64,000 bases of DNA, from the NCBI RefSeq assembly GCF_947492555.1, contig NZ_CANLNE010000001.1, forward strand, positions 682,001 to 746,000, written 5' to 3'. This stretch comes from an uncultured Roseobacter sp. GTDB lineage: Bacteria; Pseudomonadota; Alphaproteobacteria; Rhodobacterales; Rhodobacteraceae. Shown one piece after another: positions 4,224-10,021 of this stretch; position 1 is the first letter of the stretch, and each line of letters starts with the position of its first letter. The notes under the pieces were generated by a model. The model was given only the letters and a program-made list of their open reading frames with translations, ran no database searches and was not told the origin of the DNA. The position numbers and the translations under genes are program-made.

Positions 4224-6182
4224 ATGGCTCCCAAAGACAACGCAATCTCTCTCACCTTTCCCGATGGCAATGCGCGCAGCTTCGAGGCGGGCGTCACCGC
4301 AGGCGATGTGGCCGCCAGCATCTCCACCTCGCTGCGCAAAAAGGCGATCTCCGCCACCGTGAACGGGGTGCACTACGATCTCGCCTGGCCCATCGAAGAG
4401 GACGCCGAGATCGCCATTCACACCATGGCGGACGAAGAGCAGGCCAACGAGCTGGTGCGCCACGATCTGGCGCATATCATGGCCCGCGCCGTGCAGGAAA
4501 TCTGGCCCGATACCCAGGTCACCATCGGCCCGGTGATCAAGGATGGCTGGTACTATGATTTCGACCGTGCCGAGCCATTCACACCGGAAGACCTTGGCCT
4601 CATCGAAAAGAAGATGAAGGACATCATCAACAAACGTGATCCGGTCCGCACCGAGGTCTGGGACCGCGCGCGCGCGATCAAGCATTACGAGGACGCGGGC
4701 GAGCCCTATAAGGTGGAGCTGATCGACGCCATTCCGGGCAATGAGCCGTTGCGCATGTACTGGCACGGTGACTGGCAGGATCTCTGCCGGGGACCGCACC
4801 TGCAGCACACCGGGCAAGTGCCGGGCGACGCCTTCAAGCTGATGTCGATTGCCGGTGCCTACTGGCGCGGCGACAGCGATCGGGCGATGCTGCAACGCAT
4901 CTACGGCGTGGCTTTCACCGGCAAGGAAAAGCTGCGCGCGCATCTCAACATGCTCGAAGAGGCCGCCAAGCGGGATCACCGCAAGCTGGGTCGCGAGATG
5001 GATCTCTTCCACATGCAGGAAGAAGCACCGGGGCAGGTCTTCTGGCACGCGAATGGCTGGTCGATCTACACCACCTTGCAGGACTACATGCGCCGCAAAC
5101 AGCGCGCAGCAGGCTATCAGGAGGTCAACACCCCACAGGTTGTGGACCGCAAGCTCTGGGAAGCCTCCGGCCATTGGGACAAGTATCAGGAGCATATGTT
5201 CATCGTCGAAGTGGACGAGGAACACGCTCGGGAAAAGGCGATCAACGCGCTGAAACCGATGAACTGCCCCTGCCATGTCCAGATCTTCAACCAGGGCTTG
5301 AAATCCTACCGCGACCTGCCGCTGCGCATGGCCGAGTTTGGATCGTGCAACCGCTATGAACCGTCCGGCGCCCTGCACGGCATCATGCGGGTGCGCGGTT
5401 TTACCCAGGACGATGGCCATATCTTCTGCCGTGAAGACCAGATCGAGGCGGAATGCGCGGCGTTCATCACCTACCTGTCCTCGGTCTACCAGGATCTGGG
5501 CTTCGAAAGCTTCGAGATCATGTTCGCCACCCGGCCTGAAAAGCGCGTGGGGTCCGAGGAAAGCTGGGATCACGTCGAGGCCGCGCTGGAAAACGCGATC
5601 AAGGCCACTGGCCACCCCTACACGCTGGATGCAGGTGAAGGGGCGTTTTACGGTCCCAAGCTGGATTTCAAACTGACCGACGCCATCGGGCGCGAATGGC
5701 AATGCGGCACCTTCCAGGTGGACCCCAACCTGCCCGAGCGTCTGAGCGCGACTTACGTGGGTGAAGACGGCGCGAAGCATCGCCCTTATATGCTGCACCG
5801 CGCCTGTTTGGGATCTTTCGAGCGCTTTATCGGCATCCTGATTGAGAATTCGGCGGGCAAACTGCCGTTCTGGCTCGCCCCGCGACAGGTCGTCGTCGCC
5901 TCGATCATTTCCGACGCCGATGACTATGTGCATGAGGTCGTGGCGGCCCTGAAAGCCGCTGGCGTCCGCGCCGAAGCCGACGTGCGCAACGAGAAGATCA
6001 ACTACAAGGTCCGCGAACACTCCGTGGGCAAGGTGCCGGTCATCCTAGCCGTTGGTGCCCGCGAGGTCGAAGAACGCACCGTGACCCTCCGGCGTCTGGG
6101 CGAAAAACGCACAAGCGTTGAAGCGCTGGACAGCCTGACACAAACACTGGCACGGGAAGCAACGCCGCCCGATCTTTTGTAA
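4224..6182 (+). CDS. thrS: Threonyl-tRNA synthetase
   Basis: A 652-residue class II synthetase that charges tRNA-Thr. An N-terminal TGS domain (about 1-68) is followed by the editing domain with the HxxxH pair H80/H84. The catalytic core contains MNCPCH (zinc ligand Cys), [10 protein letters not shown] and motif 3 [17 protein letters not shown]-terminal anticodon-binding domain ends the chain. The start at 4224 has AGGAG ten bases upstream and gives the usual family length; the open frame extends 39 codons further upstream without a better signal. It stands alone on the plus strand. Confidence 0.97.
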
Positions 6183-6230
6183 CAATTCCCGTCTCCGCGT
6201 GCCGCGCAGCTGCCCGCGGGGACCGATTTT

Positions 6231-6255
6231 GTAACATTCCGTGAAGATTGGCGTG
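6231..6255 (+). promoter_or_regulatory. Candidate ECF-sigma promoter upstream of the bufferin operon
   Basis: GTAAC (6231-6235) is separated by exactly 16 bases from CGTG (6252-6255), a spacing and composition like ECF-sigma promoters. It lies about 130 bases before the precursor gene. Two copies of CCCAACGTCT (6272-6281 and 6328-6337) follow in the leader. Known bufferin operons of Caulobacter are controlled by an ECF sigma factor responding to metal stress; equating this site with that control is inference. Confidence 0.3.
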
Positions 6256-6388
6256 TTTTTGCCGCTGTCTACCCAACGTCTTCTGACGGCTGCGTGAGGC
6301 ACGACCTCGTGAGTGGAAAGTCCGTTTCCCAACGTCTAGATTTTGCCCTATCATTGACCGCGATGGTCCTCGAAAAAGGAATGAAATC

Positions 6389-6691
6389 ATGTCCAACACA
6401 ATGAAAACAGTCGCAATTGCCGGTGCTGTCGCTGCTGCCCTGACCGCACAGGTGACAACAGCCGAAGCGGCTGCGAAAGAAAAGTGCTACGGCGTTTCGC
6501 TGGCAGGCGCCAATGACTGCGCGGCCGGCCCCGGCACAACCTGCGCGGGCACATCCACCGTTGACTACCAGGGCAACGCCTGGACGCTGGTCGATGCTGG
6601 CACATGCGCCGAAATCGAACTGCCCGACCTGGCAGACGGCACACCGCGCCAAGGTTCGCTGGAAGAGCTGAGCCGCGATCTGCCTGCATAA
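6389..6691 (+). CDS. bufA: BufA1-type bufferin precursor (DUF2282), periplasmic metallophore peptide
   Basis: A 100-residue DUF2282 protein. An N-terminal signal peptide ([15 protein letters not shown], cleavage near AEA) is followed by a short core with four cysteines, C33, C44, C52 and C73, in the arrangement KCYGV..AG.NDC..GPGTTC...S.VDYQGNAW.....GTC. In the bufferin family such Cys residues are modified by a DUF692 MNIO enzyme, giving a ribosomally made copper-binding peptide exported to the periplasm. The rest of the pathway follows directly downstream. AAAGGA gives a good ribosome site. A stable hairpin separates it from the enzyme genes. Confidence 0.88.
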
Positions 6692-6707
6692 GCATGCATA
6701 CGAAATT

Positions 6708-6743
6708 GATCCCACCCGGTGATGCAGATCGCCGGGTGGGATC
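6708..6743 (+). promoter_or_regulatory. Strong hairpin between precursor and maturation genes
   Basis: A perfect 12-bp inverted repeat, GATCCCACCCGG (6708-6719) and CCGGGTGGGATC (6732-6743), flanks a 12-base loop in the 94-base gap between bufA and bufB. No U-tract follows, so a simple intrinsic terminator is unlikely. It could attenuate read-through or protect the 3' end of a processed precursor mRNA, giving more precursor than enzyme. That role is inference. Confidence 0.65.
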
Positions 6744-6785
6744 CCCCTGAAAACACCTCGGGACACATGACGTCGGAGGGCCAAG

Positions 6786-7640
6786 ATGTTAGATAACTCC
6801 CCTCGTTTTGAACACCTGCCGCCCGCGCCCGGTGTCGGATACAAACCCCAGCATTTTGCAGAGTTGCGCGCAGATCCCGGTGCGGTCGAATGGATCGAGG
6901 TCCACGCGGAAAACTACATGGGCGATGGCGGGCGTCCCTTGGCGCAGTTGCGGGCGCTGTCCGAGCAGTTTGCGCTGTCTGTGCATGGCGTCGGCCTCAG
7001 CATCGGCGGGGAGGATAAGCTGGACGCGGAGCACCTGGCACGGCTGAAGACCCTTGTGGGCTGGTCGAAACCAGCGAGTTTCTCGGAACATCTGGCGTGG
7101 TCCACCCATGGTGCGGAGTTCCTGAATGACCTGCTGCCCCTGCCCTACACAAACGACACGCTGACCCGCGTGGCCGATCACATCGATCAGGTGCAATCGG
7201 CGCTTGGGTGTCAGATGTTGCTGGAGAACCCGTCAAGCTATCTGGCCTTTGCCGAAAGCACCTGGTCGGAGACCGATTTTCTGACCGAATTGGTGCGGCG
7301 CACCGGCTGTGGCCTTTTGCTGGACGTGAACAACGTTTTCATCTCCGCCACTAATCTCGGGATGTCAGCACCGGACTACATCGACGCCTTCCCGCTGAAG
7401 GCCGTTGGCGAAATACATGTGGGCGGCCATGACGAAGAAGTCGACGATCACGGCGCCCCACTGCTGATCGACAGCCATGGCAGACCGGTGGATGATCCCG
7501 TCTGGGCGCTGCTGGACCTGACACTCGCCAAGTCCGGCGCGCGTCCCGTTCTCGTCGAATGGGACAATGATGTCCCCGACTGGCCGGTGTTGCGCAGCGA
7601 GGCCGACCGCGCAGCACAGGCGCTTGCTCTGGTCAAATGA
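6786..7640 (+). CDS. bufB: DUF692 multinuclear iron oxidative enzyme (MNIO), bufferin maturation
   Basis: A 284-residue TIM-barrel protein of the DUF692/MbnB family. Likely iron ligands are visible along the barrel strands: H40 (EVHAENY), H67 ([10 protein letters not shown]), H102 (SEHLAW), E147 (LLENPSSY), D180/N183 (LLDVNNV), H211/H215 (EIHVGGH) and D229/H231 ([12 protein letters not shown]). Family members bind two or three irons and oxidise precursor cysteines to heterocycles. Here the substrate is expected to be the DUF2282 peptide. A GGAGG site precedes the ATG, and the stop overlaps the next gene by four bases. Confidence 0.93.
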
Positions 7641-8392
7641 CAGTCTCACAATCCACATTTCGAAGCGCCCTGCTTGACGCGGCGCAGGACGTGCCCGACG
7701 GCTTGTTGGATGGCGATGCCGCCCCCGCAGGCCGTCGGTTTTCCGTCTACCGGAACAACGTCGTGGTATCGCTTACAGAGGCACTCCGCACAGCGTTTCC
7801 CTTGTTGCACAAGCTGTTGGGGGCCCGGACTTTCGACAGACTGGCCGCCGTCTATGTCCGTGCGCATCCACCGGGCTCGCCGCTGATGATGCACTACGGG
7901 GGAAAGCTGCCCGCGTTTCTGGAGAGCTTTGCCCCACTCCAGCACATTGGCTACCTGCCCGACTGCGCCCGGCTCGATCTGGCGCTGAGACGGTCTTACC
8001 ACGCGGCGGATGCCCCCCCCGTACCAGCCGAAACCTTCCAATGTGACCCCCAGGAGCTTGTTGAGATACGGCTGTCTTTTGCACCGGCCACGCAGGTCAT
8101 CAGGTCCGCCTGGCCTCTTTTTGATATCTGGCGGTTCAACACCGAAGAAAACGCGCCCAAACCGCGTACCGTGCCGCAGGATGTGCTGATCACACGACCG
8201 GAATTTGACCCTGCCCCACATCTGCTTCCAGATGGTGCAGCGGTGTGGCTGCAAAACCTGCAGTCCGGCCGGACGCTGGGCGATGCACATGAGGCAGCTC
8301 TTGCAGCATATCCCACTTTCGACCTTGCCACTTCTCTTTCGCAGGCTTTGCAAACCTGCGCCCTGACTGAATACAAGACAAAGGACAGCTAG
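7637..8392 (+). CDS. bufC: DUF2063 family protein, MNIO partner
   Basis: A 251-residue protein with an N-terminal DUF2063 domain ([53 protein letters not shown]) and a less conserved C-terminal half. DUF2063/MbnC-like proteins form a complex with DUF692 enzymes and help bind the precursor. The ATGA overlap with bufB implies translational coupling and an equal ratio of the two proteins. It is cytoplasmic, with no signal peptide. The DoxX gene starts on the base after its stop. Confidence 0.9.
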
Positions 8393-8941
8393 ATGATCTC
8401 TCTTTATGCTTCGGTGACACACCGCCTGTCGCAGGCGGACTGGCTGCTTGCGACGCTGGCGCGTCTGATCTTTGCAGGCACGCTGCTCATGTATTTCTGG
8501 GTGTCCGGGCTCACCAAACTCGGAGAGGGGTTCAAGGGCCTCTTTCAACCCTCCGTTGGGGCCTACGCCCAGATTTTCCCCAAAGCGATGGAGGCGGTGA
8601 CTTTCGACACTTCCCAGCTGTCGATCTTTCACTGGGCCGTTGTCGTGGCCGGCACCTGGGCGGAATTCATCCTGCCGGCCCTCATTGTCCTTGGTCTGCT
8701 GACGCGTCTCTCCGCCCTTGGGATGATCGGCTTCGTCGTCGTGCAGTCCCTGACCGACCTCTTTGGCCATGGCGGGTTGGAGCACAAGGAGACCTTCGGC
8801 GCGTGGTTTGACCGATTCCCCGACAGCGTGATCCTCGATCAGCGCAGTTTCTGGGTCTTTGTCCTGCTGGTGCTTGTTATCAAAGGCGCAGGCCCGCTGT
8901 CCCTGGACAACGCATTACGTAAACGCATCCCCGAGGCCTGA
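8393..8941 (+). CDS. DoxX family inner-membrane protein of the bufferin operon
   Basis: A 182-residue membrane protein with about four hydrophobic helices (LARLIFAGTLLMYFWVSGL, an AVVVAGTWAEFILPALIVLGLL pair, MIGFVVVQSL and a SFWVFVLLVLVIKGAGPLSLD end typical of DoxX). DoxX proteins often close bufferin operons. Their role is unknown; membrane redox chemistry or metal handling has been suggested. The start codon abuts the stop of bufC. The gene is convergent with the ArsC/Spx-like gene five bases away. Confidence 0.9.
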   Translation: MISLYASVTHRLSQADWLLATLARLIFAGTLLMYFWVSGLTKLGEGFKGLFQPSVGAYAQIFPKAMEAVTFDTSQLSIFHWAVVVAGTWAEFILPALIVLGLLTRLSALGMIGFVVVQSLTDLFGHGGLEHKETFGAWFDRFPDSVILDQRSFWVFVLLVLVIKGAGPLSLDNALRKRIPEA

Positions 8942-8946
8942 CGTGA

Positions 8947-9267
8947 TCAGGCGGCCCCTAGCGCCGCCTGTGTGTCCTTGGTCCAGCCCAGATGCATCTT
9001 GGCCCCGTCCACGATCAGGGGCCGCTTCATCAGGCTGGGGTGTGCCTTCAACTGTTCCAAGGGTGGTTTATTCCTGTCCGCCTCGTCCATCCCACGCCAG
9101 GTCGTCGAGCGCGTGTTGACCAAAGCGTCCCCAAACTGCGCCAGAGCAGCCGTCAGAACATCCCCCGGTACACCCTCGACCCGCACATCCACAAGCTCTG
9201 CCTTCGGCAAGGCTTTCAGTGCTTTACGGCAAGTGTCGCAATTTTTTAGTCCATATAGTCGCATCAT
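8947..9267 (-). CDS. ArsC/Spx family thioredoxin-fold protein
   Basis: A 106-residue thioredoxin-like protein with an N-terminal CDTC motif (C10 and C13, MRLYGLKNCDTCRKALKAL). Its C-terminal region MKRPLIVDGAKMHLGW is typical of the ArsC/YffB/Spx superfamily. The CxxC pair and the lack of the arsenate-site arginine pattern favour a YffB-like reductase of unknown substrate over true arsenate reductase. It is convergent with the bufferin operon, so shared control is not implied. Confidence 0.85.
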   Translation of the reverse strand: MMRLYGLKNCDTCRKALKALPKAELVDVRVEGVPGDVLTAALAQFGDALVNTRSTTWRGMDEADRNKPPLEQLKAHPSLMKRPLIVDGAKMHLGWTKDTQAALGAA

Positions 9268-9454
9268 TTACTCACAAATCAGATTATTCGGGGGGCAAAT
9301 CGCCGCGTTTCTTCCCGTTTTGCTTGATTTTTACACGCGAAGAGCAATCTCTTAAAGAGTAGCTGGTCTGATTTTTGCGATCAAACTGGCCGCACGAACA
9401 AGCTGCTCCGGAAGCGCTGGGGCAGTCAGGCAATACAAAGGAGGCACGGGACTG

Positions 9455-9661
9455 ATGCCAAACGGCACCGTGAAGTGGTTTAACACCACAAAAGGCTATG
9501 GCTTCATCGCTCCAGAAGGCGGTGGATCAGATGTGTTTGTACATATTTCAGCGGTTGAAAGGTCCGGGTTAACCGGCCTGGCCGATGACCAAAAAGTCAG
9601 CTTTGAGCTGTCCGAAGGACGCGATGGACGGCAGATGGCGAGTGATCTCAAGCTGCTCTAA
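9455..9661 (+). CDS. Cold-shock domain protein
   Basis: A 68-residue single CSD protein with both RNA-binding motifs, KGYGFIAPE (RNP1) and DVFVHISAV (RNP2), and the starting PNGTVKWFN. It binds single-stranded RNA/DNA and acts as RNA chaperone. AAAGGAGG lies about a dozen bases upstream. The 187-base gap in front gives room for a long leader like that of cspA-type mRNAs, but no specific thermoswitch can be shown by eye. Confidence 0.95.
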   Translation: MPNGTVKWFNTTKGYGFIAPEGGGSDVFVHISAVERSGLTGLADDQKVSFELSEGRDGRQMASDLKLL

Positions 9662-9778: not shown

Positions 9779-10021
9779 ATGACGGAATTCCTCTCGGTCC
9801 TGCTACTCTACTACGGCTGTAATGCAGCCGCTGAGACACGTGCGCTCAACCATGCGGAAGTCATGGAATGCATGGCACACTACCAACAAGTAAAAGAGTA
9901 TTTCACCGAGCCGGAGGCAAATGGCGCAGAGCGTTCCCAACGTGCCTACCAGAACTTCAAAGCGTGGGAGCACCGGAATGCCGAGACCGTCGCTGATCTG
10001 CGGCGCACAGCGTCGCGCTAA
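9779..10021 (+). CDS. Small hypothetical protein
   Basis: An 80-residue protein. A short hydrophobic N-terminus (TEFLSVLLLYYGCNAAAE) may act as a signal peptide or lipoprotein-like leader with Cys14, followed by a charged helical part (EVMECMAHYQQVKEYF). I do not recognise a family. A GAAG motif lies close before the ATG. It is convergent with the small secreted protein at 10037, only 15 bases away. It may be envelope-located; the function is unknown. Confidence 0.55.
   Translation: MTEFLSVLLLYYGCNAAAETRALNHAEVMECMAHYQQVKEYFTEPEANGAERSQRAYQNFKAWEHRNAETVADLRRTASR

Follow-up and report, generated by a model that had tools for sequence, protein, structure and literature searches.

Several operons that make thiooxazole peptides have been described, and the closest to the one studied here is found in Caulobacter. 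In that organism copper induces operons of this type, and mutation of sigF makes the cells sensitive to copper (PMC8224329). The Caulobacter operon, CCNA_03363-03366 (CC3254-3257), whose DUF2282 and DoxX genes lead us to class it as Buf1, is under the control of SigF with NrsF, with the promoter motif GTAACC-N16-CGAA; 5' RACE served to map SigF-dependent promoters of that organism (PMC3511200). In bufferins of the Buf1 type, modification falls on the central cysteines, which become thiooxazoles, and a disulphide joins the first and last cysteines; copper binding has been published, and a DoxX gene is part of the bufferin cluster core (PMC12452194). The oxazolin (HvfABCX), fontiphorin (FonABC) and gonophorin operons likewise pair an MNIO enzyme with a PME type 1 partner and, by our reading of BufB, have the conserved Asp base in common with the present system. 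They make 5-thiooxazoles, and the proof of the thiooxazole comes from these relatives (PMC12668002). The oxazolin and fontiphorin precursors carry EGKCG repeats (PMC12668002), whereas the precursor described here is a DUF2282 protein. Methanobactin MbnBC and TglHI share the MNIO family and its iron ligands, and our BufC model resembles TglI; however, product, precursor and partner type are different, and their precursor has no signal peptide (PMC12452194).

The operon examined here lies in a 64,000-nucleotide stretch of DNA from an uncultured Roseobacter sp. (NZ_CANLNE010000001.1, positions 682,001 to 746,000), hereafter the window. Its four gene families and their sequence along the DNA are those of the Caulobacter operon, a likeness of families and gene order rather than of aligned sequences. 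Its control region is different, in that NrsF was not found and a double palindrome stands upstream of bufA. Judged by its sequence, the operon itself is a complete, ordinary Buf1 bufferin operon. The new part is the conserved double palindrome (the array), which apparently replaces SigF control.

The operon and its modification enzymes

All four reading frames are open, and all four products, that of the doxX gene included, score above the curated Pfam cut-offs of their families (Table 1). bufB overlaps bufC by ATGA, and doxX starts directly after the bufC stop codon. Coordinates and Pfam thus bear out the gene order, the overlap and the zero gap given in the preliminary description of this DNA. 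The claim that the bufferin operon is complete also stands, for the Buf1 type, on the gene families, the BufB score and the BufC fold. Indeed, BufB reached 363.7 bits with NCBIfam NF050167 (MNIO_BufB, 'MNIO family bufferin maturase'; curated cut-off 310), compared with 225 bits for the HvfB model, whose cut-off is 360. In the NCBIfam search of the window proteins, BufA matched no model, BufC stayed below the HvfC cut-off, and DoxX matched the HvfX family weakly (27.3 bits, below the cut-off of 80). A genome-wide profile search found one DUF2282 gene and one MNIO gene in the source genome.

Table 1. Coordinates of the bufferin operon and its associated DNA elements in the window
Feature	Position	Strand	Description
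Double palindrome, predicted operator	6284..6312	+	TGACG-N4-CGTGA-NN-CACG-N4-CGTGA; 29 bp, 0 mismatches
Candidate promoter (inferred)	6314..6342	+	TGGAAA (6314-6319) - 17 bp - TAGATT (6337-6342)
bufA	6389..6691	+	Buf1 precursor, 100 aa; PF10048 (DUF2282) 85.9 bits, cut-off 22.4
Stem-loop between bufA and bufB	6708..6743	+	16 pairs, 4-nt loop, z -3.9
bufB	6786..7640	+	MNIO bufferin maturase; Pfam MbnB_TglH_ChrH 334.4 bits, cut-off 25
bufC	7637..8392	+	PME type 1, DUF2063 plus predicted RRE-like partner; PF09836 86.6 bits, cut-off 27.2
doxX	8393..8941	+	DoxX-family membrane protein; PF07681 29.9 bits, cut-off 23.6

Two neighbouring frames may be mentioned here. An ArsC/Spx-like protein is encoded convergently with doxX (8947-9267, minus strand); it passes the Pfam ArsC cut-off, and all NCBIfam names fall below theirs. 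Further on, an 80-aa open reading frame (9779-10021) has no Pfam match at E 0.01.

We then considered the active site of BufB. The iron ligands of TglH are H71, H107, E151, D184, H216 and E258, to which N187, D229 and H231 are added for the third iron (PMC10880893). With positions counted by hand in the alignment, all nine have a counterpart in BufB (H67, H102, E147, D180, H211, E258, N183, D229 and H231), and these nine residues are invariant in eight aligned sequences, namely that of the window and seven relatives. The residues that HvfB requires, N175, D242 and H244 (PMC13419390), were taken from the motif pattern as BufB N183, D229 and H231. Moreover, by our reading of the ERD/EWD motif, BufB D260 corresponds to FonB D249, the proposed catalytic base (PMC12668002). 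The preliminary description had named a DUF692 site deprived of most of its ligands as a reason to abandon its reading; this objection fails because BufB retains all nine TglH ligands as well as the putative catalytic Asp.

In BufC, Pfam detected DUF2063 only at residues 5-95, and neither the sequence nor a BufC profile matched a solved structure. An AlphaFold2 model built with 15 sequences (the window and 14 named loci; mean pLDDT 89.8) matched TglI (8hci, E 1.7e-06) and NGO1945 (3dee, E 3.6e-04, TM 0.64 by target), in both cases over most of its length. An RRE-like half is therefore predicted, and BufC as a whole is predicted to be a DUF2063 plus RRE-like partner folding like TglI and NGO1945. 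For decay of the operon in the source strain, or for a peptide left unmodified, we found no supporting evidence; the four open frames and the intact mapped active-site residues argue against it, as does the retention of DUF2282 in 211 of 295 sampled genomes of the bacterial family, and we hold this explanation to be highly improbable.

The precursor and its cysteines

BufA has cysteines at positions 33, 44, 52 and 73. In an alignment of 132 rows (63 from 61 loci of the family and 69 from named loci) the four are fixed wherever the row is complete. Once identical rows and rows shorter than 90 aa had been removed, each of the 120 distinct sequences had exactly four cysteines and the same core pattern. 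A signal peptide can be read by eye, with K6, a hydrophobic run and AEA just before position 28, and position 27 is Ala in all 132 aligned rows. No solved structure was matched by the BufA sequence. The tail RxGSLxxLxRDLPA (window 6647-6691), which lies outside the Pfam match, is conserved in 115 of the 120 distinct sequences.

The preliminary description expected heterocycles, and mass shifts, on all of C33, C44, C52 and C73. This part of it conflicts with the Buf1 chemistry published in PMC12452194. Since in Buf1 the two central cysteines are modified and the two outer ones form a disulphide, a change is to be expected at C44 and C52 and not at all four positions; the analogy predicts modification of C44 and C52 and a C33-C73 disulphide. 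The corrected chemistry narrows the cysteines that should now be examined. Copper binding and periplasmic buffering by BufA are likewise carried over from the family and would make the peptide a copper buffer. One could also imagine that the modified peptide serves chiefly another purpose, such as the handling of gold, cadmium or chromium, or the response to oxidative stress: in Caulobacter, the bufferin genes under SigF show a response to dichromate and to cadmium (PMC3511200), and the gold-induced gig operons are bufferin clusters (PMC12452194). However, thiooxazole peptides bind copper (PMC12452194, PMC12668002), and loss of sigF in Caulobacter impairs growth in copper, with chromate and cadmium sensitivity reported as similar (PMC8224329). 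We therefore regard a chiefly non-copper function as unlikely and retain copper as the probable ligand.

Probable absence of SigF/NrsF-type control

The SigF/NrsF type of control is recognized by an NrsF gene and a GTAAC-N17-CGAA promoter; the search covered these two features, and neither was found. A profile search of the source genome gave no NrsF match, and the closest approach to a SigF promoter, at two mismatches, falls within the coding sequence of bufA rather than before the gene. The preliminary description, whose bufferin assignment is sound, overlooked these absences together with the upstream array and the gap after bufA with its hairpin.

We compared 31 loci for promoter type, made up of the window and the loci with the highest DUF2282 scores and so not a random sample. 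Sixteen came from NrsF-positive genomes. Of these, 13 carried GTAACC-N16-CGAA at no more than one mismatch (11 on the bufA strand; L005 and L023 on the opposite one), and none carried the array at up to three mismatches, the lowest count being four, in L002 and L023. Among the 15 other loci the SigF motif was found in none at the same limit, and the array was found in 11 at up to three mismatches; L020 and L031 had it with four, and L010 and L025 had neither motif. In a search of the class, 24 of 30 loci were readable, and exact GTAAC-N17-CGAA occurred in 7 of the 24 and the array (up to four mismatches) in none; L164 went unscored owing to too little upstream sequence. Many SigF-type promoters carry one such palindrome. 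A single palindrome matching at least 8 of 10 positions starts 18-20 bp before GTAAC in 13 of 21 exact GTAAC-N16/17-CGAA sites, comprising 10 of the 11 from the family and 3 of the 10 from elsewhere in the class; the rest of the -50 to -11 interval of these sites held one palindrome match, at -29. According to these sequence comparisons, the array probably stands in for SigF control in this lineage. The split is not absolute, since L024, from an NrsF-positive genome, has a SigF-type promoter within the array clade (see below) and L010 and L025 lack both motifs.

A double palindrome upstream of bufA

The array was characterized in 61 loci, namely the window and 60 genomes chosen as NrsF-negative, one of which (G228) has a sub-cut-off NrsF match at E 3.8e-4. 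Its consensus before bufA is T(N)ACG-N4-CGTGA-NN-CACG-N4-CGTGA-N-T, two palindromes in a 15-bp register. At no more than 4 mismatches in 18 positions it was found in 59 of the 61 loci (13 exact), versus 0.16% of dinucleotide-shuffled upstream regions; L095 and L078 exceed this limit, with 5 and 8 mismatches, respectively. Against the exact copy of the window, the expected number of matches at up to three mismatches was 0.10 (sd 0.36). Leaving aside its own reverse strand, the window array is the sole site of the source genome with fewer than three mismatches. When the same genome was searched for a regulon with the full array at up to three mismatches, the bufA site and two others were returned versus three matches to the reversed-pattern control, and the 15-base core at up to two mismatches gave 61 matches versus 34 in the control. 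The other exact core match lies inside an rpsD-like gene and was taken for chance, as were three one-mismatch matches, two within reading frames and one over a start codon.

Across the family, the array at no more than one mismatch was present in 71 of 295 genomes, with zero reversed-pattern control matches. A comparison by hand showed DUF2282 in 70 of these 71, the exception being G112. Twenty family sites with no known bufA nearby were fetched for a closer look; bufA proved to lie beside the array in 14, and the other six (L116-L120, L122) had none, the arrays of L116-L120 lying in or near unrelated genes. An exact scan of named genomes gave 96 stretches, and bufA is downstream in 68 of the 80 listed. 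Within those 80, L178 (Nereida) has thrS and the buf genes on either side of the array but on the opposite strand, the stretch of L176 is cut, and ten had no buf gene in the screen. In two of these ten, L184 (an Alphaproteobacteria MAG) and L216 (a Rhodospirillaceae MAG), the array stands together with another palindrome some 95 bp ahead of the start of a small exported protein rich in Met and Lys, which has a weak DUF6488 match (E 0.0036, below the cut-off); neither MAG, for which completeness is not given, has a DUF2282 match. The other eight, some of which were inspected, look like chance matches.

We propose from the sequence pattern that the array is the operator of a dimeric regulator. 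The element is palindromic and sits between thrS and bufA, and it might instead be a structural element, of RNA or of another kind, or belong to the thrS transcription unit. Several features argue against this. The half-sites hardly vary, in contrast to the spacers, the array precedes the predicted -10 box at a near-fixed spacing, and single palindromes recur ahead of SigF -35 boxes at a set distance. The genomes with such single palindromes (e.g. G254, G114 and G149) carry nrsF on the opposite strand, some 1 kb ahead of bufA. A structural or thrS-related role is therefore rather improbable, and an operator remains our preferred reading. Next to bufA in nine class loci, seven of them readable, we found one TetR-like frame (L146) and no recurrent regulator gene. 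The literature searches found no paper linking a CGTGA palindrome with copper and a regulon, and, among the matches listed, nothing on topic that joined roseobacters or Rhodobacter to DUF692, DUF2063 or DUF2282. The available parts of PMC3511200 do not mention a palindrome for the Caulobacter SigF promoters, and the word 'promoter' is absent from the main text of PMC12452194. The operator is thus called new only within the reach of these searches.

Distribution and phylogeny

NrsF was found in 45 of the 295 family genomes at E <=0.001, 40 of them above the cut-off. Listings compared by hand put DUF2282 and NrsF together in 37 genomes and left 174 of the 211 DUF2282 genomes with no NrsF match. 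The gene order thrS-bufA-bufB-bufC-doxX-arsC-like(-)-cspA (window 4230-9661) was complete, with all seven genes, in 47 of the 61 loci. In L061 and L072 the contig ends before bufC; the remaining incomplete loci showed no thrS, arsC-like or cspA flanking gene in the screen.

For the BufB tree, 111 of 121 loci were labelled by promoter, and removal of ten duplicates and the short L021, L151 and L160 left 98 rows. The tree was made by a quick method with SH-aLRT support only, and it has several long outgroup branches and many weak inner forks. A clade with support 100 contains 65 rows, the window among them: 60 array, 4 unlabelled and 1 SigF (L024). A second group of 15 rows (support 88), one of them from another family, takes in the family's 12 remaining SigF rows. 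The array label changes 7 times on the tree versus a shuffled mean of 29.9; the NrsF-positive L023 bears this label only under the loose 4-mismatch rule.

Promoter and proposed mechanism

The array abuts the candidate promoter. Measured from the first CGTGA, a TANNNT begins at +43 to +45 in 33 of the 55 array loci; the promoter scanner preferred a rival, TTCCCA-17-TATCAT at 6326-6354. If TAGATT is the -10 box, the palindromes lie near -43 and -58, which suggests an activator-like position.

We propose the following mechanism, in which we are confident as a whole. BufA would be made with a Sec signal peptide, and a complex of BufB, a multi-iron MNIO, and BufC, its RRE partner, would oxidise C44 and C52 to 5-thiooxazoles before export. 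By analogy with the family, the Sec pathway would then export the peptide, C33 and C73 would form the disulphide, and the thiooxazoles would bind surplus copper in the periplasm; DoxX may be an accessory membrane protein. Expression is probably not driven by SigF/NrsF; a dimeric regulator would bind the pair of palindromes that stand in tandem immediately before a sigma-70-like promoter, and the hairpin after bufA may keep the precursor more abundant than the enzymes. Beyond this locus, we speculate that many alphaproteobacterial bufferin operons are controlled by a dimeric regulator, hitherto undescribed and probably responsive to copper, whose binding sequence is TCACG-N4-CGTGA, with one site against the ECF -35 box in SigF-type operons and a doubled site replacing the sigma factor in the thrS-linked lineage. 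The Met-rich protein of the two DUF2282-less MAGs would then be a plausible second copper-buffering target. This wider proposal could equally well prove right or wrong. As the 29-bp element stands mainly before bufA, it makes the stress sensing of most bufferin operons of the family directly testable and offers a route to the regulator; the same array could serve, in roseobacters and related bacteria, as a reporter of the stress that induces the operon.

The bufA-bufB gap

The gap between bufA and bufB is 94 bp long in the window. Stems of at least 11 pairs occur in 34 of 56 such gaps, the window included, versus 1.6% of mononucleotide shuffles, and the folding energy has z < -2 in 35 of the 56. 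The hairpin may have a role in the balance of precursor and enzymes. Two loci, L078 and L081, have two tandem bufA genes ahead of bufB.
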